A stretch of DNA of 64,000 nucleotides, from contig CM034547.1 of NCBI GenBank assembly GCA_020055645.1, positions 43,974,409 through 44,038,408 of the forward strand. The letters are read 5' to 3'. Of this stretch, positions 18,999 through 52,537 are shown one piece after another (position 1 is the stretch's first letter; each line of letters opens with the position of its first letter). This DNA comes from Tomocerus qinae (taxonomy: Eukaryota > Arthropoda > Collembola > Entomobryomorpha > Tomoceridae). The notes under the pieces were generated by a model. The model had not been told where the DNA came from and searched no databases. It saw only the letters and a list, made by a program, of their open reading frames with translations. A program made the translations under genes and the position numbers.

Positions 18999-20613
18999 CT
19001 AAATAATATTAATATTTCTAATCTTAATTAATAGGTAGATATAAAGTTTCGTGTTCTTATAGCTAGTTTCCAAAACATATAAAAATTTAGTTGCAATTAT
19101 AGGCGTTATATTATTAAGTACAGTAAGATGGTTATCTCTATTTAAGGTATCTGTAATGTGCGGAAGTATGTATTTATTTCTAAAACATTTATAGTGTGGG
19201 CATACATGCATAATGTGGAATGTATCTTCTATGTCGTTTAAGTTACATATATCGCAATTTTCGTAGTTGCCGATTCTAGAACCTCTTAACCAGTATGACT
19301 TTTTGTCTACCGTCACGTACCCTAGATTTAGTCTTAACTGGGTTATCACACGCGTAGCTGACCATTCTATGTCAAAATTTAAGTGTTTCTCCGTACCTAT
19401 TCGTAGTTTTATTAGATTATACAGCCCTTGTCTATGTGACCTCATAATTGCAATATTTTTGATATTCCAATTTAACAGACAATTTCTTATTACTGCATTA
19501 ACCTTTTTTCTGTCTAAGTATTTGTCGTTAATAACAAAGTCTATGTTCCACTCTTTTAACAATTTAACGACGTAACATAGCCAACACCTGTTTTTACATT
19601 GTCCAGCACACAGTTTAAACCATTCCTTATAACTGTCATTGGCAAGTGAACCTGGAGGTTTCGACTTTAGTTTGACTATAAAATTCAGGGTCAGTTTAAT
19701 GAAAATAGCTCAATTGGGAAAGTTCCTGTCTCCAAGTAAATCTTCCATCTCGGAGTTTCCTTAGGTAGATAAAGGAGTTTCCTCAAGAATCTCATTTGAA
19801 AATCGGTGAATTCGTTTGTGTGATTGACCCCCCACGTAGGAGAAGCGTATAGAAGTACCGAATTTACCAGTGAATTAAACAGCTCCTCTTGTCGGTTGAA
19901 TGTGTTTGTTTTACTTCGTATTAGGAGCGATAGGTGAGCATTTAATGCTGCATTAGCTTTTTCTAGAAAGAACGTCTTCGCCGAGTTGGAAAGGCCACTG
20001 TAATGGAACGGCACTCCAAGATAAATGTAGCTGTCCACAATTCCGATTGGTTTGCCTTTCCATTTGAACTGGTACTCTTTAATTTTATGCCCCTTTCTGA
20101 AAATGACGATTTTGGTTTTTTCGATGTTAACTTCCAGTCTATTTTTGTCGAAATAGGCAGATAGTCTTCTCATTTTCATTTTCAGCCCTCCCTCAGTCTC
20201 TCCGATCATAATAATATCGTCAGCAAAGAGCAGCATATGAACTTCGTGATTGCCGATTGTCACTCCTGGGACTTGGGTGTTGCTAATTGCTTCTATGACG
20301 TCATTAATGAAAAGGGTAAATAATTTTGGCGAGAGGCTGTCTCCCTGCATCACTGAGTTAGTAATTTTAAAAGAGTTGCTAGTGCCTTCGTCCGTCTTAA
20401 CGTTTGCCGAAGCTTTGAAATAAAATGTTTGGATCACTTGTAGGAATTTCGAGCTCATCCCTACGTCATATAACTTGTTCCATAAAAGGGATTGATCCAC
20501 GGAGGAAAAAGCCTGTTTTAAGTCCACAAAAATAGCAAACAGCTTTCCTTTTTTCTTTTTAAGGGATTTCTGAATTATTGTGTTGAGTATGAATATCTGT
20601 TCCGCGCAGCCAG
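18999..20613 (-). pseudogene. LINE reverse transcriptase ORF, 5'-truncated and frameshifted
   Basis: The reading starts mid-domain at about 20613 and runs through FAIFVDLKQAFSSVDQ (RT motif A region with Asp), QGDSLSPKLFTLFIND, and LLFADDI at about 20210-20230, which holds the paired catalytic aspartates. The first frame meets TGA at 19691-19693. The same protein resumes in another frame from about 19690 down to the stop at 18999 (segments such as NDSYKEWFKLCAGQCKNRCW). The C-terminal part has a Cys/His cluster, CDICNLNDIEDTFHIMHVC, of the kind found at the end of many LINE proteins. The endonuclease and ORF1 are absent. Truncation and frameshift make it inactive. Confidence 0.88.
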
Positions 20614-20628
20614 TAAAATAAAATACTA

Positions 20629-23600
20629 TATAGGAGTATAAAAATCAAACCAGGATGCATATATAGCTAATGAAACCACAGCCCAGAACTAAATGGTTAG
20701 CAGCATACACGCTTTCGCAGTAGTGACATAATGGAAATGCTTGGAAAATACCATACACAAAGTCATCGTCATCGTTTAGCTGGCGAATCGGTTTATTTAG
20801 GTCTGATATGTTTGTCTTACTAACTGTCGTACTCGTACCTACACTTATTATACTGTTAGTCATACTAAATGAGTTCAATCCCTGTTTTCGACTGGGAACA
20901 ACAGTAAATATATGCATCCAAAAGATGTACTGCACGAAAGTGTATCAAAATAATTGTAGTACATGATGTCACTTACCTACAATTTGCATTGTGCATGCTG
21001 TAGGTTATCTACTACAGTGGACCTTTTGTTTTGCTTTGGTTCTGATTCTGATTAAATCACGTAAACAGCCAACATCATTTCCCTTTCTTGTGAAAAAATT
21101 AGGTGCTTGTTCATCAACACATCATGGGTATGGATTCACAGTAAATAATGACATGTATAAGCTCTTCTTAATGTAGTGCATTAGTTATTGTACTAATCAA
21201 AGCCTAAAGAGAACCATTTTGGTTTTTGTTAGGTACTCGCAAAATGCAAATTGCACGACCATGTCGAGGAAGGCATGATGCTACACCGCCAAGCTAGTGC
21301 CATGATCATGACCCGTCATACAACAGCTACCTAAATAAAACGTTCATTTCCCCCACTGATTCCCTTTTAATACGCTTTTTAGCATATTAAAGTGCTTATT
21401 ACAGGCACTGTCTAATAAATTTTATAATTTTAGTAGTTACAGGTACTGAGACATGGTGCCTGTAAATTACATTTCGATATTCGTCTTACCTTAAACACTG
21501 CGATATATAGTGGTGCAATGTAAACTAGAGATGAGTCATTTATTTTTACCTGTTTCGTGCAATGCTAATAGCAATCACAGTATTTTAAACAACGTATGCA
21601 CAGGTAATTGATTCTAGTTATAGTATTTAGTGCAAAAGAACATCATTTACTAGATGCTTAGCATGACTTATGGATATATATTGTGAGTATACATTAAATG
21701 CACAATATTACTCAGTTTATGATAATGCTACAAGTAATGCGTTGAAAAAGTATCGGTCGAGTTGCTAACTAGGGTAGGTGTAGATTAAAATAGAGTTTTA
21801 TACCAATCAATCCGATACTGACTAATTAAATCAACAACAGTGACAAATCTTCATTATCAAAATCCTTGTGCGGGTAACAATATTCTTGTTTACCACTTCC
21901 ACTTTCTACCTTGTAAATATAATAGTTGGAAGGACAGTTTAATATTTTATGCGCAATAATATTTACTTAATGTGAATCATTATACTATATAACAAACATA
22001 TTTTTTGATGAATGCCAATGTTCAGAAGCCACGTATAGAATACATGTGAGAATATAAGACTGCACGATTGCGATTGGTGAGAATCGACATTTATTTATAC
22101 ATTCTAATCTAAAAATTGATGTCATAATTTGTCTGCCTCATCAGCGAGTTTAACGTATATATCAAATGCTTGTTTCATGACATACCATTCAATAGGAATG
22201 CGTAGCTTATACAAGATATACATATATCTGTTGAAAATGTTTCGTCAGACAGCCTGTCGCCTGCTCAAATCATATTTACTGTACTAAAGGTTACATTATT
22301 GTTTTATGTCTTAAACTAAAGCAATTAACTGAAATGTGGGACTGACGTAGGGGATATTTCTTCCGACAACTGTTTGGAACAAGATTCGTTTAAGATAATA
22401 AGAAGTATTAGCATGGATTTAGATATGTTCTTCTCCATCCTCTATATAGAAAAATTAACAAAAAGTAGGTACTTTAAATATTGGACCAGTTGGCAAGTCA
22501 TATATATTATTACTTACTTGCAGAGTAAGCGATCAAGGGAAGTTTTATAGGGTGTGTAATTCTGCCTACAAATCACATACGACATTCGATTTGCTTATTC
22601 ATACTCTATTATAGCCTGTTATATACTTTATGCTGAATTATCTGCATTGTGCAGCCTTACAAGCATGGAATTTTCACTGATAAAGAATACCTAATAATAA
22701 TCTTCATAACATTTATATTGCCCAGGCTGTTAATAATAATATTTATACTTAAGTTATACAAGAATTTATGTACGTGTGTACAGGTACAATATACTTCGCT
22801 CTTAATTACAAATTTATGACAATACTGTATGATGGTAAAGGCATTATACAACTGCGTATTTATTGACGGACAACTAATCACAGTATGCAAATACTAAAAT
22901 ACAGCCAAATCCTTTGCTCATGTTTCTTATCTACACAACATTCTCAAACTCTAAGTCATCATATAGTTATACGCCATAGGTCATCCATAGCAATCACAAC
23001 TTAACGGACGTTTTGTTCGACGTAATTCGGTACACTTAGAATTACGATTCACTCAGCAAATAGATCATCAAGTGTATATAAAATGAAACGTATTACAGAT
23101 AATTAGCTGTATTGTAGAAGGTGGCATGATCTGAATAATTGTCATTTAACTAGATGAAAATGGCAGGCTTTTAATTGAATTTATGGATTGTATCAAGTTT
23201 CTTAACGATCATAATAAATTCTACGGCTGGAATTTCTGTTACTTACTACTAGTATAATGATTACATCTCGGCTTACAGTAGTTGAAAGAAGGAATTGGAG
23301 CAGTTTGTTTTTCTGACGATATTTTTTAAACAAATGTAAATTGACGACCAGCAGTCTGCTTGAACGATTTTGTTTACATTAATGAAGTCATTTACATTGC
23401 ATTAACTTTGCTATGCCTGTACTAAATACTACAGAGCTATTATTATGCATGTATGCGCATCAACGATAACTTGAGACTCCCATAACAAAAATGTTAATAA
23501 GTGATAACTAGCTAAGAAACTAGGTACCTAAACCCAAGTTTAAGCAGCAATTGTCGTATGTAGTATTGTTAGTGTGCTAGTATCTTGTATTTAACTTCCC

Positions 23601-41113: not shown

Positions 41114-41297
41114 GTAAGTTTTCCCATTTTTGATCCGAAATACTAGTATTATGAAAACGCTACTTGCTACAAAATTACATTATCACAATTTATTATTTCT
41201 ATTACAGTAGATTTATTTTTCCTTTTGCACCAAGTTGTAGCATATTTGATAACTTAACCTTAGCTTGCTCAAATACAAATTAATTTTCGTTTTCCAG
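41114..41297 (+). other. Intron in the 5' leader of the chitin-binding protein gene
   Basis: Donor CACAA/GTAAGT at 41114 and acceptor TTTTCCAG at 41290-41297 lie immediately before the ATG at 41299. This suggests a non-coding first exon ending at about 41113. Inferred from splice consensus only. Confidence 0.5.
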
Positions 41298-41298
41298 A

Positions 41299-42258
41299 AT
41301 GAAACTGTTCGTCATAGTTGCATTAATAGTTGCCGTCGTCGCTGGCGCAGCGGTGAAAAAAGAGGATGTGAAACAATCTAAAAGGACTGGACGACAATTT
41401 GGATGGCAAACTCCTTATTATACTCAGCCTTATGATGAAGCAAAAGTTTATGGTCAGAAATATTATGAAGACTTGAGGCAGCCTGCAAATGCCGTACATA
41501 CATCTTTAGCAAAAGAAAATATCAAAATGGAAAAACATCTGGGAACTATTTTGGAAATGTCAGCAACTAAAAATAAATTGCCTTCTATTGAGTTAAAACT
41601 AAAGCCTACTAAAGTGAACACTTCTTTAATTGTGACTCGGAGTAAACCCCAGCCTTCTGTAGGATTACCCGCATACTCCGCACCTCAATATCACCCACAG
41701 AACTTTTACGGATTATCAAATTACTATCAACAACAGCCGATTCAAAACTTCTACGGAAATAAAGAATACCTTCCTATCCCTATCTCAAGTCCGATGATTC
41801 CACTAAATCCAAGCAGTGAATCCCTCTACGATTCTTACAATCCTGACTACATTGGCATGAACTACAACACTGGCTATGGCCAATACGCCACTGCAATGGG
41901 ACACCCGAGTTTCGGAGTTCAGGGACATTACACACCTTCGGGAGGTCTACCAGGCAATTATAATTATCTTAACCCTATGATGGGCATGGCCAACAATCCA
42001 GTTAATGAATTTGAGAACAATATTGAAAATATCATTGCTGATGGTTTCCAATTTGAATGCCCAATGGACTTCTCTGGAAAAGGTCATATTGTGGGTCAGG
42101 CTACAATTTTTCCCGATCCTTCTAAATGTAATCGTTTCTATTATTGTCAAATGGGTCATGCTTACGTATTCCAGTGCTCTGAGAATTTATATTACAATCC
42201 TGATATCAAGGCATGTGATGAAAAGCAATATTTTTCTTGTGGAAATCGGGCTATTTAG
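41299..42258 (+). CDS. Secreted protein with one peritrophin-type chitin-binding domain (CBM14)
   Basis: A single coding exon, 319 residues. Residues 1-17 (MKLFVIVALIVAVVAGA) are a clear signal peptide. A Tyr/Gln/Pro/Asn-rich middle (about 30-245) with many Tyr-Gly and Gln-Pro pairs looks structural and disordered, like cuticle or matrix proteins. The C-terminal type-2 chitin-binding domain has six cysteines at 254, 277, 283, 293, 306 and 314, with spacings 22-5-9-12-7 that match the family's three-disulfide knot; aromatic residues of the binding face are present (FPDPSKCNRFYYC). Such proteins bind chitin in cuticle, peritrophic matrix or egg coats. The ATG follows a splice acceptor, so the coding exon is probably the second. 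An ATTAAA polyadenylation signal variant lies at 42391-42396. The exact tissue role cannot be read from sequence. Confidence 0.88.
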   Translation: MKLFVIVALIVAVVAGAAVKKEDVKQSKRTGRQFGWQTPYYTQPYDEAKVYGQKYYEDLRQPANAVHTSLAKENIKMEKHLGTILEMSATKNKLPSIELKLKPTKVNTSLIVTRSKPQPSVGLPAYSAPQYHPQNFYGLSNYYQQQPIQNFYGNKEYLPIPISSPMIPLNPSSESLYDSYNPDYIGMNYNTGYGQYATAMGHPSFGVQGHYTPSGGLPGNYNYLNPMMGMANNPVNEFENNIENIIADGFQFECPMDFSGKGHIVGQATIFPDPSKCNRFYYCQMGHAYVFQCSENLYYNPDIKACDEKQYFSCGNRAI

Positions 42259-42562: not shown

Positions 42563-42829
42563 CCACAGTAGTTTGATCCCCATGGCTACTCCCCCACATA
42601 CAGTAATGTAATACCCAAAATAACAAAAATTTTGCACCCAAGTTGGAGAAGCTCATGGCATTGGCAATTTGGGTGTAGATTCTGCAAATTGCTGTTGCTA
42701 TTGACCCCATGTGTTGGGCAGCCACCCAAGATCCCATTCAAAAATCGAAACTTGGGTGCAAAATTTTTGTTATTTTGGGTATTGCATTACTGTATGTGGG
42801 GAGTAGCCATGGGGATCAGGCTACTGTGG
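42563..42829. mobile_element. Short MITE with 80-base inverted repeats
   Basis: The left arm 42563-42644 and right arm 42749-42829 are inverse complements with few differences. The ends read CCACAGTAG and CTACTGTGG. The flanks repeat GTACTA (42557-42562 and 42830-42835), a likely 6-base target duplication. The 267-base element has no coding capacity. It lies about 300 bases after the chitin-binding gene and 230 before the UBE2O-like start. Confidence 0.85.
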
Positions 42830-43062
42830 GTACTACAATACTACTAACAGATTGGCTGATTTGATGGATATTTTGTTTTGCTTCGTTATACTGAAAAATA
42901 ATTTAACTTAGCAACTAAACATTATTTATTAGAGTAGTTTACTTGGTAGTTTATGAACAAAGAAGTAGAAAAGTTTTGTTCGTGTAAAGGACAGAAGGAA
43001 ATGAAGTAAGGTTAGTTAGAAGTTTTTGCTTGAGAAAATTCAGACTAGGTTAGATCCAAAAT

Positions 43063-46000
43063 ATGGACAAAAAAGTACCGTCCAATAAAAATACAGGAAA
43101 TAAACCTCTTCACAATCCATTTTACGATCTTATTCGTGATAACGAAAATAACAATAATGAGGATAATCCAGCACAGGAATTATTTCACTACGGGAAGAGT
43201 AATGTCCACCCAGATATGGACTCTCGAGATGAATATTATGCGAACGTTGTAACAGACGATTCTGAGGATAGTTTTCAATCATGTGACACAGACGAACTTG
43301 AGAAAACTGGCAGAACTAAAATTCAACCTAATCCTGTCTACTACATCGACGATGAAATCTGTAGAATAGTTGATGATGGAGCAATTGAATTTGGAGTTGT
43401 AACTAATTCGGGTCTAGCAGGTCTCAATACACTCCAGGTCATATGGACTGCTCATAACAGAGTGGAATGCCAAAATTTATCAGAGTTAGATTTTCTGCAA
43501 GGATCAGAAGAACAAAGAAAAGTAAGTTTAGTAATTTAGTTTACAACTGCATTAATTTTATCAAAACTCACAAGTCACATTATACGGTAAAAATCCTACT
43601 AAAAGAAAACTTTTGTGCAAAATTTCTGGATTTCAGATTGCACTTGTAGACAGAAAATTACAACGCGGAGATTTAGCACGCATTGAACCAGGAGGAGAAT
43701 TCGGAGAAGTAGTGAACCTGGAATGGATGGCATACTTAAAAGTAGTCGAGACAAATGAAGCAATTGTCGATGTTCGTTGTCATCATTTGGAACCACTACT
43801 GGTATGCCTTTAGGTTTTTCGTAGTAATCTTTGTAATGTCTTCAAGTTCAATTTACAAAGATGTTATCAAATTTGCAGCCGTACCAAATTGGAAACAGAA
43901 TTGAATTAGATGGTTGGATAGGCGTTGTTGAAACTGTTGAGTCCAAAGCCACTATAATGTTCTCTGATGGTCAATCCTGCATTATTTACTACACGCACTA
44001 CTTGCCTGAGAAGACGCCCTACCCAGGGAGAAAAGTTTCATTTACTACAGATGAGTTAGAAGAGTTAGGTACGGAATATTTGGAAAATGGAAGAAGTATT
44101 AGATCGAAATATGGTAGAAATCCTCCGGATGGTTTTGTAGTTTTCCTAAAGGTTACATCTCAAGTAAATAGTAGTCCTTAGAAATAGATTATGGAATGGT
44201 TTACTGTAATAATATGCCATGAAATAGGTCAACTCCATTGAAGTGGAATGGAAAATGCCGATTTCTCTGCCAGATGGGGAAATATGGGATTCTAAACCAG
44301 ATTGTACGACAATAAAACGCTCGAAATTAAAGAATCATGTGCGAAACTGTGATGGCCCTCACCCACACCATTATCAATTGGATTCTGATCAGACTGATTT
44401 GTTGGATAATTTCCATTACTACACTGCGAAACAAGGGGACATTTCCTTGTCTATCAAGAATAAAGAACTGAATATGCATATAATTTCAGAATTCTTCTTA
44501 GGTGTAAACGAAGACAGCGAAAGTTCCGACAATGAAAACGATAATGTAAATTAAACTGAATTAAATTGTATTAATATTATGTAATACGCTATGTATTCTT
44601 AGTATTATGTAATGCTTACATAGATTCCTGTTAGCGCCCCTACAGTTGTCTCAGTCTTGAGAACTTGTCGTGTGATTGATGTGCAGTGGGAAGTAAGATG
44701 ATTTTCTCGTGTGATATGATTTGTGAAAATGAGTCTAAATTTTTAACAATCATTTAATTAAACTACAGTCGGGGAAAATCGATAGCTACAGAAGTTGTGA
44801 TGTTATCGAGAAGGTATCTTTTCCTGACCAATTTCGGCAAATCGTTCAGAAGAAGGGTTCCTTAACTTCTTCGTCAACGTATGACTACGGCATAACTTTA
44901 AGACGGTCACCAGGTATATCCAACGTTAATGGATTAATGTCTATTAATCTTGCCTAATTGAAAACTTCTATTTACAGATGATACTGTTTGGGTAAAGTGG
45001 TTTGCGAAAATTGACATAAATGACGTGTTTGAAGAGACGATCACTTCGGAATCAAAGTATGATATTGATTGCCATTTTAAATATGGAAGAATAAGCACTG
45101 GAGAAATTGTTTGCCGATCAAAGGACTGCAGGGTCTCAGAAGAAATATTTCAATTTGGGGTTGTTGACCGTGTCACAGAAGATGGAAAAGTAAATGACTG
45201 TAAATAATTAATAAGCTTGTAAATAATAGAAATTGCGATTATATTCACACTGAATGGCTACCATTTGTACGTGTAGGTAATTGTCATCGATCGCACAACA
45301 AACACTAAAGAGACGTTGCGTCCATTTGATCTGGAAGTCGTATTGGAAGATGAAAGGAAACCGTTTATCCCTAGAACCAACTCTGAAAAATCGTTCTATA
45401 AGAAATTATTCATTGAAACGGCTACCGAAGAAGGGGATCCCATTACAATTCAAGAAAGTTATTTTAGCCCTCGACTTCTCAGGAATTACAATCTGGCTAC
45501 AATCCCTCCAGAAGAAAAGTTCAAGATACTTCCACGTGCCCCAGTTTCTCATTATTTCTATGATGATCCTGTTGTGTACAATGACGATTATTTATTGAAA
45601 GTCTCTTTTGATCGCAAAATGATGAAGCAGTTTTTTGCAGAAGGAATTTGGATTATTGGCTACGAGGATCGTTTGGTAATTAAATTATTTTTAATTTTTA
45701 TTGCTTCCAAATACTATCTTGGGATTTACTGTGCTGGTTTTAGGAGCTTTACTCAGTTATGATGGTTGGGCAGAAGGGAACTCCTTATGAAGATGGACTC
45801 TTCAACTTTGACGTTCAATTACCAGTAGATTATCCACAAATTCCTCCTAATTTTTACCTGGCTACACAGCTCTGTGAACCAAATTCAATCCCATTTGGAC
45901 TCACACCTGGATTTCACCATTTTTCTAAACTTTACACTCTGAAAACACTTTCCATGCTAGAAGCTATTCTAGCTGTGCAGAGTAATACATAATACATGTG

Positions 46001-46649
46001 ATATAATACATATAAAAAATCCACAAGTATCACTTCTTTTTGTCCTAAATCCAATCAATGTAGTAAATCTATTTTGGTCTCTAGAATTCATATTTGTGGT
46101 GAATCAGCAACAGGAAAAGATATCGGATGAATTGCCCACTGAAGAAATGAGAAACTTCTATTGTCAAGTTACTATTAATGTTCTGGATTCGTTATTCAGA
46201 ATTTTGGCAAAACCTTCCACAAATTGGCGTTACGATATCATTCGTTATGTTCATGCTATAGCTCCAAGGTAGTAGTATCTACGCATATTACATATTTGAG
46301 ACAAATAATACAAACTTATGCTTCAAAAATATTTTTTTAATTTAAGAGTCATTTCTCGCCTATCAAATATCGTGCTAAAGTCCGCCAAATCTGGGAGTGA
46401 GATTAAAAATATATACCTAACCTAAATATTATTTTGTTTTTTGTGGTAAACAATCTCTTTTTATTTCTCTCTTGAAAATTAATTCATATTATTTTATCCA
46501 AAGTAGCATTGAATGCAAATAATGACAAAGTAGCCAAGTCTTTTGTTCCTTTTCCTGTACCTGTCACAAAAGGATTCCTCACAGCGATTGAAAACAGGAT
46601 TCGTCGCTTTCAAGAACTTAATCTCACAACGGCTGGACCAAAATTATAG
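43063..46649 (+). CDS. UBE2O-like protein with an E2 (UBC) domain lacking the catalytic cysteine
   Basis: Twelve exons: 43063-43521, 43637-43801, 43879-44163, 44228-44545, 44624-44692, 44769-44913, 44978-45189, 45277-45675, 45744-45981, 46085-46268, 46347-46396, 46504-46649. They encode 889 residues, with every GT-AG junction in phase and introns of 63-115 bases. The N-terminal half has SH3-like beta segments (FGVVTN, GEVVNLEW, DGWIGVVETVE, VISVLRTCRV-type strands), as in the UBE2O substrate-binding CR regions, with an acidic linker near 395-409. A UBC domain begins near residue 640 with GTPYEDGLFNFDVQLP and YPQIPP, as in UBE2O. The next segment (about 722-750), where the family has an NPN motif and the active-site Cys, reads YLATQLCEPNSIPFGLTPG: there is no downstream Cys and about eight residues are lost. 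The C-terminal helices and a final PFPVPVTKGFLTAIENRI match UBE2O. UBE2O is a joint E2/E3 ubiquitin enzyme; this version should be unable to carry ubiquitin. It is shorter than vertebrate UBE2O (about 1290). Confidence 0.88.
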
Positions 46650-46737
46650 ATTGTAATTGTGAATGTAAGAATTTTTACATGTATACCTATAACCTTAGCA
46701 GCCAACATTTATCTAGAGTACTACTTGACAAAGATAC

Positions 46738-46743
46738 AATAAA
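46738..46743 (+). terminator. Polyadenylation signal AATAAA of the UBE2O-like gene
   Basis: AATAAA lies 89 bases after the TAG stop. Confidence 0.5.
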
Positions 46744-49700
46744 CGATATACGTAATCGCCCTGATTTTATGTCAGTGTACACTTAAACCAGATTATGCAT
46801 GCTATTGTTATCTGTCTGTCCACCTGCACCACAAGCAAACAAGTGCCAACCACAACTGACACCGAATTTCGGGAGTACAATAGTATAAATGGGAATATTA
46901 CAATTGCAATCATAACTAATAACCGACTATAACTTCTTTCTGTGCACATGTTAATTACTTGCTTCTTGTAATGTAGATGTGACATGTGGTACCCAAAATT
47001 CTTTTGACATGTATCAGTAAGCACTGGAGTGAATAAACATCTAATGCGTCAATTTTGTCCTAAACAGGATTGCATTACGTTTTCGGTTTAGTACAGCTAT
47101 ACATATCAGAAGTACATCAATAACAATTAAAATAACTGGCGAAACTAGGATATATTAATTGTACATGATGTAACAATAGTCCTAAAACATTAAAGGTACA
47201 CCTTAATATTATAGTTCAGATTGTTTTGTTTGTGTGCTCGAAATATGTTCCGTATACACTTATATCAAGTACAATAATAAGTTACATGAATGCTTACATA
47301 AGTCACACCCAACTTGTCCCTTGATTGACACTCAGTCCCCTATAAGTTGGAAGGGAAGTCTCTGGAATTTGTTGAACATCACTCAGAAGAGATGAGGGCA
47401 TCATTTTATTGTAGCACTGTAAAAGGATTGGCTTTCGCATTTGCATGAATCACACATGTTCAGTTTCGGTCAGTTAGCTGCATTGTATTTCTCACTTGGT
47501 AGCTTCATGAAGAATTCTTATGAAGTTGTATAAAGATTGTGAGTTGGAATATACATACATCGTTCGAAAATATAATACTAAAGCTTGCACTAATTGTATC
47601 CATTACAACTTTATTAGATACGTGGCTGATATTAAATCTTAATTTACTAAATATACTTAGAATAATTTATTTTACATAGAGACAGATGGATGCACAATTT
47701 TAAAACCTCAAGGTTCTGCCCGAATAAAATTACTTTGGCTAAAAGCTTTCTAGTGAAAAATGTAAATCAGGTTGGTGAAAGGGTAAATTTTTGGCCTTTG
47801 GTCATTCTTTATATTTTTATTTTCCACAGATTTGTAATTCGAAGTCTCATCTCTCTGTACGTATAGGACTCTATCATGGCAGGTTGTGCATTATTTTCCT
47901 GCGTATTAACTTGGTATTATGTGAAAGAATTCAGTAGAGCAGAGAGAATTGGAAATGTGAGACGGTCATTGTCAAAAGCTTTTGATGGAATTACAATTTC
48001 TAATAGAATCCTTTAGGCAATTTTGTATCGGAAAGACAAATCTGCAGATACAGGAAAGCAAAGAGGCAAATTGGGTTTATTTTGTCTATGACTCTACATA
48101 ATTTACCTCAACGACTCTTTTCTTTGCAGACTTTTCATCTTTCCACCCACTCAATGACTCAATGGCTTTAGGGTTGAATTCAATCTCATCCTATTCACAT
48201 CCAGAAAAGAAAAGTGAAATTCATCTGTTTTGGTCAGTTTAGTTCATTTTAGTTCACTAAGCGGAAGGGTTACTCACGGTTGCTACAAAAAAGAATGGAG
48301 CACAAAGGAGAAAAGACAAACATATGAAATCGGATCCTAATAGAAATCCTAATCCAAAAAAGCCAACAGTGAGCCAGCAAAGTTCTGTCAACCAAACACA
48401 CAAGCATCAACCTTCATCATCGGATTTCTGCATTGTGCACGTAACACCGTGAGTACGTAGTGACTAGCGACGTCCATTCTTCTGACTGGATCAAGTCACA
48501 CTGTCGCAGATATAAGCACAGATTTCTACTTCCAAAGGGATCTTCGACCCACACTAAATACAATCATGTCTGTGGGCTTAAGTACATTTATGCACAGTAT
48601 CCACTAAAGGGAGCTTCAACCCTTTTATACTTTCTTTTCGAACACAGGCCATAATCTCAGAAGTACCTAATATATTTTGTTGAAAAAATTGTGATATTCA
48701 TCACCGAGTATATTTGGAAAATGACAATGCTCAAAACATTCCAAATATTGTAGTGTTTTAAGATATAAAATAAATGGAAGCATAGAATTTTCAGGTTAAA
48801 TTAAAGTCAATGCTCAACTACTTCATTGCTGGACTATCCATTTTATGTTACTATTTAACTAAATGTTATCACATATCATGCATCAGTCGAGGGATAAACG
48901 TGTTTACGTTGCTACTTACTTAAGTAGTGTTACTACAAGTGTATGCCAGATTACCCAAACATGGTTCTTAACATTTTATGGCTTGAGTTGCTTGATGAAA
49001 CATACACGAGGAATCTGTCAAACCAAACAAACGAGTCAATTGGAACAGTATATCCCATATAAATAGTAATACTTGCAAACAAAAATATTTTGTAGGCACT
49101 GTAGTAGTCGGGTGACGGGTATGTCTATGTTTTCTTATAATACATGATGGTTTGGTTGGTTAAAATTTCTTCCTAAAGCTTCCCTCTTTAGTTACTTGTT
49201 TTTCTTCCGGATCTAAATCCTTGATCTTGCCTACCGCCGCCGTCATTGATGTGATAATAGAAATAAGATAAATCCCTTGCATGCAAGATGAGAAAATGTA
49301 CGTTTACACTTTTGTATTTTCATACATAGGTACCGTACATAGACATAGTATGTTTAATAATAATTACATGTTATGATAAGAGAAAAGATTTAAAAAGACC
49401 GGCCTAAAAGCTTTAATAAATAGATACGTGAAGAATACTTTTAAAGTTGAAAAGTTTATTTTGTTAAGTGGATAGCAATGGCAAATGACTCGTTCTTCAA
49501 ATGGCAATAATTTCTCACGTTACAGTAAGCAATAAAAAAGGATTGTGTTGTAGAGCGACCTATGCTAGCTGGACTGTGGGCATTTGTGACAAAGCCTGAA
49601 CGAAGCAGGAAGTAAAATGATAAAATACTGCTTTTCCAAATGAGTTCACTAAAATGGGATGAAAGAGTTTAGTTTTTGAAAGGAAAACTCCATAAATTTT

Positions 49701-50231: not shown

Positions 50232-51749
50232 TTAATTGCAATCAGTACCTTGTTGAAATTGATTATTATTATTTTCATGTTGGTATTCATCTGGAGGTGA
50301 ATCCTGATCATAAGACGACCGAATGTTTGAGTCATCTTCTCTGATCAGTGGCATCACTCTAGATTTATTTCCATGGTGTGGATCTGTTTGAGGATAGTTA
50401 TACTGAAAGTTTCTGTAATTTTGAGGCGGCCCCGACTCTTGATGAGAATGGTAAGAGGGATGAGCACCGCAACTAGAATTCTGCATACGAGAAAAGTTAT
50501 GATTAGATTTGCCATTGTAATTATCAGTTTCCCTGTAATCATCATTAGAATTATTTTCAGATTTGTAATTGTTATTATCATATTGGTAATTATTATCAAA
50601 ATGTTGGTAGGAGTCATATTCATAGCTATCATAATAGGATTGGCGGTCCTTAGATCTGTTTTCAAAGGATTCCCTTTAAATTGTTTCTTCCATTTCTTGT
50701 CCGTTAGTAGTTTGTTCTCTGATTCTTTGGTCAGCTTCATGCTTTGTCAGTGGTGGTAGTGGAGATGGATATCTCTCATCATCACGTAAATTCTTCAAAG
50801 ACGTTTTAGCCGCTTGGATTAGGTCATCAGCCGTATGGAAGACAGCACTGCATAAGGTAAGTCGAAGTTTAGGAATAAGACCATCTCTGGCTCTGGAAAC
50901 TGAGACATCCATTGCTTCATTACGGTTTACTTGCTGTGCCAAGGTGACCATGTCATACACATATGTCTCCACTGATTCGTTTGATTGCTGGCGTCTGGTA
51001 TGTAAAATACGCTGTCTCTCATTCTGGACTGCTGGAGAATCATATTTGGCGTTGAATAGTAGACGGAATTCTTCCCAAGTGACGATAGTATGTTTCACGA
51101 GGTCATACCACTGTTTGTTCTCTTTATCTAAAATACTTGGAATTAAATTAAACCATCGTTCTTCGTCGTAATGCTGTGCACGAAGGTACGTTTCAACATC
51201 ATCAAGATAATGATTTGCTGTAGAAGATTTTGCATTATATTGAGGAATTTTTAGATTAGGATTAGGTGCATTGACTACAATTGGTTGATTAGGATAATTA
51301 AGGAGGGGTTGCTGTACTAGCTGCAGAGCTGCATTAGCATTTGCTGGAGGGTTACCGGCAATCGGGTTTCCCTGTCGAGCATTTGCCTGGATTACATCCA
51401 TAATGTAGCGTTGCAAAAGGTTACGACTTTCCTCAGGGATAAGGTCAATAAGTTCATTAGGAAGATCAGGTAAGGCTATGTTATCCATAATTTTTAAACT
51501 ATTTATCGTATCAGTGCTAGGATAATTTGAATGGTTAGGAGTAAAAAAGTTTTGAATTACTGAACTAACTTCGCTACTGGTTGTAGTCTGACTGCCGACT
51601 TCTGCCTCGAAATCTACATCTGGATTGCTAGGTACTACTTCAGGAGTAGGAATATTTAATGCCTGTGCTTGCCTATTTAGAATTTCATCTAACTCTTGTT
51701 TCTGCCTGACTATGCTTCTATTAACAGCTCTATTCTTTTTATCTGCCAT
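50232..51749 (-). pseudogene. Retrotransposon gag, interrupted by an in-frame stop
   Basis: ATG at 51749. The first 357 codons hold a retrotransposon-gag capsid region (about residues 200-320, with WFNLIPSILDKENKQWYDLV and WEEFRLLFNAKY segments). An in-frame TAA at 50676-50678 ends that part. The same frame then continues without a shift for another 147 codons to a second stop at 50232-50234. This distal part is Asn/Tyr/Asp-rich (YDNNNYKSENNSNDD) and ends with a Gln/Asn-rich tail. No CCHC zinc knuckle is visible. The single nonsense codon and the missing pol indicate a decayed copy. Confidence 0.82.
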
Positions 51750-52537
51750 ACACGAGACAACTAAATTAAGTAATTAAAATGTTCGTGTAATGGTAAGATA
51801 AGACAAAATTGATTTAAATGAGAAATAAAGTCTGGCGACACGATGTCGCGACAAAAATAGAAATGTTCGGTAAGTAATAGGTTTTAAGATTTTGAAATGT
51901 AATGAAAATATTTAAATTAGGAGATTGTAGGTAATTAGTAGGTAGGAGAATTCATAATATAATCACTCGAATATACATGTATGGGTATATAGTTATTATG
52001 TTGATTAACATACCACGAAGATATAGTGTAGATTGAATAGCTATGTAGATAAGATTTCTCTGAAGAAAATTCTGGAAGGAAAGAGTCCACAGCATGGAAG
52101 GAAAAAGATGGCCACCGAGAGAAGAAACAGCCGAATGACTGGGCTGTAATTTAATGATGATCGGGGCAATGTGGACAGAATAGCTTTCCTTCTGAAACTT
52201 GAAAAAATTGATGTTAGAAAATATTTATTTTAATTTTCTGTTATTCGTTTCTGTAGGTATTTTTCAATGGTAAGTGTAAAAAATTTTAATCCGTTTGATA
52301 TTAATGAGCAATATGTGGTGGTAGTAAAAAATTGTAATTTTTTTGAGATTGCAATATATTATAAAATTGTGAACGATACATGTTACCATACAGTGAAGAA
52401 TTTTAGAACAGGTAGGCAGGTAAGTAGAACTTCCTCAGATCCCTCAACTTTGGAATTTTCACTTGTAGAGAGTTTGACGATACTGAAGTCACGGTGGGGG
52501 CCAGTGTCACTTGTGTTGCAGAAATTGGCAATACTGA

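Follow-up and report, generated by a model that had tools for sequence, protein, structure and literature searches.

The window, by which we mean the whole 64,000-nt stretch of Tomocerus qinae DNA analyzed here, contains a gene that resembles UBE2O and yet lacks the catalytic cysteine of the E2 domain. Few pseudo-E2s are known, and most of them are small proteins of the UEV type. Judged from its sequence, the gene described below is likely to be a retained pseudo-E2.

The window harbors an open, intron-bearing homolog of UBE2O

Re-reading and splicing of the exons yielded an open 866-aa UBE2O homolog at positions 43063–46649 of the + strand, with 11 coding exons (2601 nt), GT-AG borders at 10 of 10 introns and no internal stop; this model is predicted from DNA, and its start codon, like part of its splice sites, was chosen by the analyst. 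Exon 1 (43063–43521) contains the YYIDDEICRIVDDGAIEFGVV stretch, which matches the UBE2O N-terminus, and is followed by an SH3-like part in exon 2 (43637–43801). Exon 3 (43879–44163), whose 3′ splice site is the analyst's choice, carries a match to tSH3-B_UBE2O at protein residues 213–245. Exons 4 (44228–44545) and 5 (44769–44913) precede a CR2-like part (SKYDIDCHFKY) in exon 6 (44978–45189), and exon 7 (45277–45675) encodes the end of CR2 and the first helix of the E2 domain, with the UBE2O coiled coil missing. The E2 core lies in exon 8 (45744–45981) and the C-terminal helices of the E2 domain in exon 9 (46085–46268), while exon 10 (46347–46396) leads to exon 11 (46504–46649), which holds the C-terminal region, with FPVPVTKGFLTAIENRIRRFQEL aligned to FPLIPASKGFCLTLRKTL, and the stop codon. 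The original prediction had placed these exons correctly and had rightly described the remaining frame as intact, since no stop occurs in 866 codons; its count of 12 in-phase exons has to be lowered to 11.

The relationship to UBE2O is evident on several levels. UBE2O chains in the PDB match the window protein at E 2.5e-18, and Pfam recognizes both UQ_con (38.3 bits, cut-off 27; profile positions 25–74 of 140 only) and tSH3-B_UBE2O (PF23046; 24.2 bits, cut-off 22.4; profile positions 2–34 of 139 only); in a genome-wide search with the PF23046 profile, the window gene was not among the three matches. In a global alignment the protein is collinear with UBE2O along its length, starting at the N-terminus and reaching the FPxxPxxKGF stretch near the C-terminus, and no counterpart of the UBE2O coiled coil was found in the alignments. 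Since the final four introns have the phases 0, 1, 2, 1 alike in the window gene, the canonical UBE2O gene of the same genome and a further paralog (L036), the window gene represents an intron-bearing UBE2O duplicate rather than a retrocopy. The window protein hence resembles UBE2O in its domain order, tSH3-B match, CR2-like part, N-terminal E2 half, C-terminal region and splice phases around the E2 exon, but differs from it by the absence of the NPN motif, the catalytic cysteine and the coiled coil, by eight codons fewer and by an identity of only about 25%. The proposal that the gene is built on a UBE2O scaffold is therefore borne out by PDB, Pfam, alignments and intron phases alike.

Among public proteins, 73 matched the window protein with 25–30% identity over 23–33% of the query. 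These are UBE2O-type proteins; the organisms named are insects, and the entries that carry a name are labeled either UBE2O or unnamed or hypothetical proteins with UBE2O domains, many others having no name. A second search of public proteins gave three matches, and all 76 proteins from both searches carry NPN...C, so that no relative without the cysteine was found among them outside the T. qinae genome. Of the public proteins among the matches listed, 164 of 164 likewise have the NPN...Cys segment (163 by pattern, P0074 by eye), a set that includes 120 of the 736 matches obtained with the genome's own canonical UBE2O.

The E2 exon has lost the NPN motif and the catalytic cysteine

Exon 8 translates as ELYSVMMVGQKGTPYEDGLFNFDVQLPVDYPQIPPNFYLATQLCEPNSIPFGLTPGFHHFSKLYTLKTLSMLEAILAVQ, is open throughout and is bordered by TTTTAG upstream and GTAATA downstream. 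It measures 238 nt vs 262 nt for the E2 exon of canonical UBE2O in the same genome, i.e. it is 24 nt or eight codons shorter, and the phases into and out of the exon (0 and 1) are equal in both genes. Its E2 core is well preserved over the first half (TPYEDGLFNFDVQLPVDYPQIPP), the NPNLYEDGKVCVSLLGTW stretch of UBE2O is missing, and the cysteine and NPN are absent from the window gene in every alignment made. The sole cysteine of exon 8 is residue 705, which lies upstream of a residual EPN, and the next one is residue 767. We considered the cysteine of LCEPN as a relocated catalytic residue and rejected it because it precedes the residual motif, whereas the catalytic cysteine follows NPN.

An alternative exon carrying the motif was rejected as well. 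The pattern [HNTSE]P[NVKSD]-x5-9-C[VILS][SGC] does not occur in any of the six frames of 43000–47500, and a search for short words nearby retrieved a single ICLS near 46810, past the stop codon and outside any NPN...Cys pattern. Moreover, the introns flanking exon 8 span 68 and 103 nt and are thus too short to hide an exon of this size. These results agree with the original prediction, which had described the segment of the NPN motif and the catalytic cysteine as replaced, with about eight residues gone, inside one continuous exon and without a missed intron, and had listed the E2 entry, the C-terminal helices and the UBE2O tail as retained; the latter parts are recognizable in the alignments.

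The genome encodes a canonical UBE2O and further paralogs without the cysteine

A search of the genome for a UBE2O with the cysteine had been proposed together with the original prediction. In the 334-Mb assembly (115 contigs), a search with damselfly UBE2O followed by splicing located a canonical copy at C2:61.77 Mb, with NPNLYEEGKVCVSLLG intact and 13 exons aligned, the ends of the gene not being fixed. This protein is 92% identical to a JGI protein, and its best-scoring named match among those listed comes from Allacma fusca, with 58% identity across 65% of the query.

Altogether, at least eight UBE2O-type loci have a readable E2 exon, a lower bound since a minority of the 70 UQ_con matches in the genome was read singly. 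The cysteine is kept in five of them, namely the canonical gene (L029), L030/31 (C1:54.65 Mb), L032 (C1:88.05 Mb), L034 (C1:105.04 Mb) and L035 (C1:104.94 Mb), and is missing in three, the window gene, L036 (C1:99.24 Mb) and L057 (C5:21.72 Mb). L033, which we take to be BIRC6 by its sequence, and L061 were left out of this count. L034 and L035 are near-identical (92–95%) paralogs about 95 kb apart that keep the cysteine, have NPV in place of NPN and are interrupted by an additional intron within the E2 domain.

L036 encodes an open protein of 717 aa from start to stop without cysteine and without NPN, and a genome search with this protein returned no further close copy. L057 has NPK in place of NPN, and the ten exons of it that were read are open, its start and stop not having been found. 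In the alignments the place of the catalytic cysteine is occupied by valine in L036 and by isoleucine in L057. Both loci are thus like the window gene in being UBE2O-derived and fast evolving, with open exons, no NPN and no cysteine at the catalytic place. Unlike the window gene, L036 retains the length of the E2 exon (265 nt vs 262 nt in the canonical gene), and the E2 exon of L057 was read as 205 nt, 57 nt shorter than the canonical one, with an uncertain 3′ end beyond which the frame remains open. Five more weak E2 matches were read, four of which are other kinds of E2 by the analyst's reading; the fifth, L061 at C2:26.59 Mb (26.5886), is a decayed copy in which a UBE2O-type E2 exon runs into a stop, followed by an inverted repeat identified by eye.

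Phylogenetic placement of the diverged copies

In a tree built from 13 rows and 679 columns, L036 is the partner of the window gene (support 99/98), and the pair persists with the same support when the tree is confined to 424 non-E2 columns, whose content does not depend on the trait. Upon addition of L057, support for the pair was 84/89 on non-E2 columns, 86/86 on columns of the E2 and C-terminal parts and 98/96 on the complete alignment. With L057 included, the four diverged copies separate from all canonical rows (99/98 non-E2, 98/97 all columns). Their grouping with the canonical genes of springtails received mixed support, with 96/92 on 679 and 80/78 on 424 non-E2 columns, and, once L057 was included, 51/62 without the E2 columns and 91/91 with all of them; the diverged copies may have arisen within the springtail lineage. 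The trees neither establish nor rule out a single clade for the three copies without cysteine (p-AU 0.453). A tree of the E2 domain alone was set aside as too weak, as 2 of its 15 inner branches were well supported. All diverged copies have very long branches, and since long-branch attraction is thus possible, each grouping of them is unsure.

Retention of the reading frame argues against a pseudogene

The loss of the active site could mean that the window gene is a young pseudogene or a decaying duplicate. Fast divergence of the window copy, the presence of the broken relic L061 in the same genome and the lack of a relative without the cysteine among the public matches fit this explanation. 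However, the gene comprises 11 open exons, GT-AG at all introns and no stop in 866 codons, and the same trait recurs in L036, which is open from start to stop, and in L057, which is open as far as it was read. After 0.019 neutral substitutions per site, the probability of finding no stop in 866 codons is down to 0.05, whereas about three quarters of the aligned residues differ between the window copy and its kin. The GC content at the three codon positions is 48/34/34 in the window gene vs 27% in its introns. The absence of stops together with an active-site segment that is no longer recognizable implies that, very recent relaxation aside, the frame has been under selection for most of its history. 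A long-dead pseudogene is, on these sequence grounds, unlikely, with neutral drift beyond about 2% divergence excluded at 95%, and we consider a young or decaying copy unlikely as well. For the cousin pair L034/L035, which keeps the cysteine, dN/dS was 0.31 over 734 codons (Fisher p 4e-5), a value obtained with the last 100-codon piece in a wrong frame, though this piece holds no difference, with 53 of the 65 codons of one exon aligned and with several exons left out, among them L034 5443–5554, 6078–6149, 6219–6393 and 8195–8244.

The predicted structure of exon 8 retains the first half of the E2 fold

AlphaFold2 modeling of exon 8 alone (33 homologs) predicted three strands with a pLDDT of about 70–79 up to residue 41, followed by values below 50 for residues 42–79 (mean 56.2). 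A structure search with this model gave no PDB match reaching E 0.001 (best 8.7e-3); among the matches listed, 50 PDB structures are E2s or E2 complexes by title. The UBE2O domain 8gxr superimposes on the model with 1.8 Å over 41 columns. The model hence supports retention of the first half of the E2 only, and the E2 fold of the window protein may be incomplete.

The match of the first E2-core strands to E2 structures would also suit a protein that acts like a UEV, one whose inactive E2 domain binds a different, active E2 and keeps the acceptor ubiquitin in place while the chain grows. This follows the logic of Mms2/UBE2V, an E2 fold without the cysteine, and like UBE2V/Mms2 and the UEV domain of TSG101 the window protein has an E2-derived domain devoid of the catalytic residue. 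Unlike these proteins, the window gene originated from a large UBE2O-type protein and lost the cysteine separately. Homology and splice phases point to UBE2O and not to descent from UBE2V/Mms2. The genome moreover has a gene (L062) that looks to be its own UBE2V-type gene. A UEV-like mode of action, as suggested in the original prediction, is one of several conceivable ones and appears distinctly improbable.

Alternatively, the domain may no longer adopt an E2 fold, in which case the protein would serve only as a binding scaffold through its SH3/CR parts, in an unrelated role. The low pLDDT of exon residues 42–79 and the still shorter matching exon of L057 (205 nt, 3′ end uncertain) are in line with this, but the N-terminal E2 half is retained (38.3 bits in Pfam, cut-off 27), the C-terminal helices and tail are recognizable, and the low pLDDT is weak evidence as the model covered a single exon. 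We regard this explanation as quite improbable. That an error of gene model or assembly hides an intact active site is scarcely credible, given a continuous and open exon, no NPN...Cys pattern nearby in six frames, conserved intron phases and further paralogs without the cysteine at separate loci.

A probable catalytically dead UBE2O paralog acting by binding

We rather favor the view, as the moderately probable one, that the window gene encodes a functional, catalytically dead UBE2O paralog acting by binding. The sequences show that a UBE2O gene was duplicated together with its introns and that this copy diverged to about 25% identity, losing its coiled coil as well as the active site of the E2 while keeping an open frame with the SH3-like, CR2-like, N-terminal E2 and C-terminal parts. 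The resulting protein would be unable to carry ubiquitin, and E3-independent ubiquitin transfer is not expected of a sequence without the cysteine. As it combines SH3-like, CR2-like and C-terminal parts with the lack of the cysteine, it is best read as a binder, i.e. a client decoy or a heterodimer partner: it might take up clients via its SH3/CR parts and shield them from active UBE2O, or it might pair with active UBE2O and alter its activity or client choice. The missing coiled coil, the pLDDT below 50 for exon residues 42–79 and the long tree branches speak against a dead paralog of this kind. Of the original proposal of a conserved pseudo-E2 on a UBE2O scaffold, the pseudo-E2 gains support from the paralogs in the genome that lack the cysteine and from the pairing of one of them with the window gene in the trees, while all 76 relatives retrieved from public proteins keep it.

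According to PMC12835413, the only catalytic cysteine of human UBE2O is C1040, and the enzyme binds clients and adaptors via CR1/CR2, dimerizes via several domains, requires its C-terminal region for thioester formation and is aided in substrate ubiquitination by its coiled coil. A review (PMC12109548) describes a second, E3 cysteine, C617, in CR2, whereas none was found to be needed in PMC12835413.

The presence of at least three copies without the cysteine beside a normal UBE2O suggests a new family of non-catalytic regulators. Among the best matches in the open-licence literature, considered at the level of titles and opening lines of abstracts and with most subscription papers outside it, there was no report of a UBE2O without the cysteine. 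A full-length UBE2O scaffold that lacks this residue, and of which the genome has at least three copies next to an active UBE2O, is a natural experiment on the roles of the SH3/CR parts without catalysis and on whether UBE2O is controlled by its own relatives. Paternal genome elimination is thought to be ancestral to globular springtails, as stated in PMC10427803. It is conceivable, although we deem it very improbable, that a springtail family of dead UBE2Os, arisen by one ancestral loss or several, holds back or diverts the removal of orphan proteins of basic character, namely histones and ribosomal proteins, and perhaps does so in a germ line from which the paternal chromosomes are eliminated.

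Surroundings of the gene

Just upstream of the gene, a secreted-looking single-exon frame lies at 41284–42255 (+), with a Cys-rich C-terminus that was named chitin-binding-like by eye. A MITE-like inverted repeat at 42563–42829, about 230 bp upstream of the gene, has arm pairs of 53 and 32 nt that are 98% and 94% complementary, and related pieces are present in L032 and, less alike, in L034. Elsewhere in the window, open frames at 50679–51773 (−) and 19002–20644 (−) are retrotransposon-like, being gag-like and reverse-transcriptase-like, respectively, by the look of their translations.
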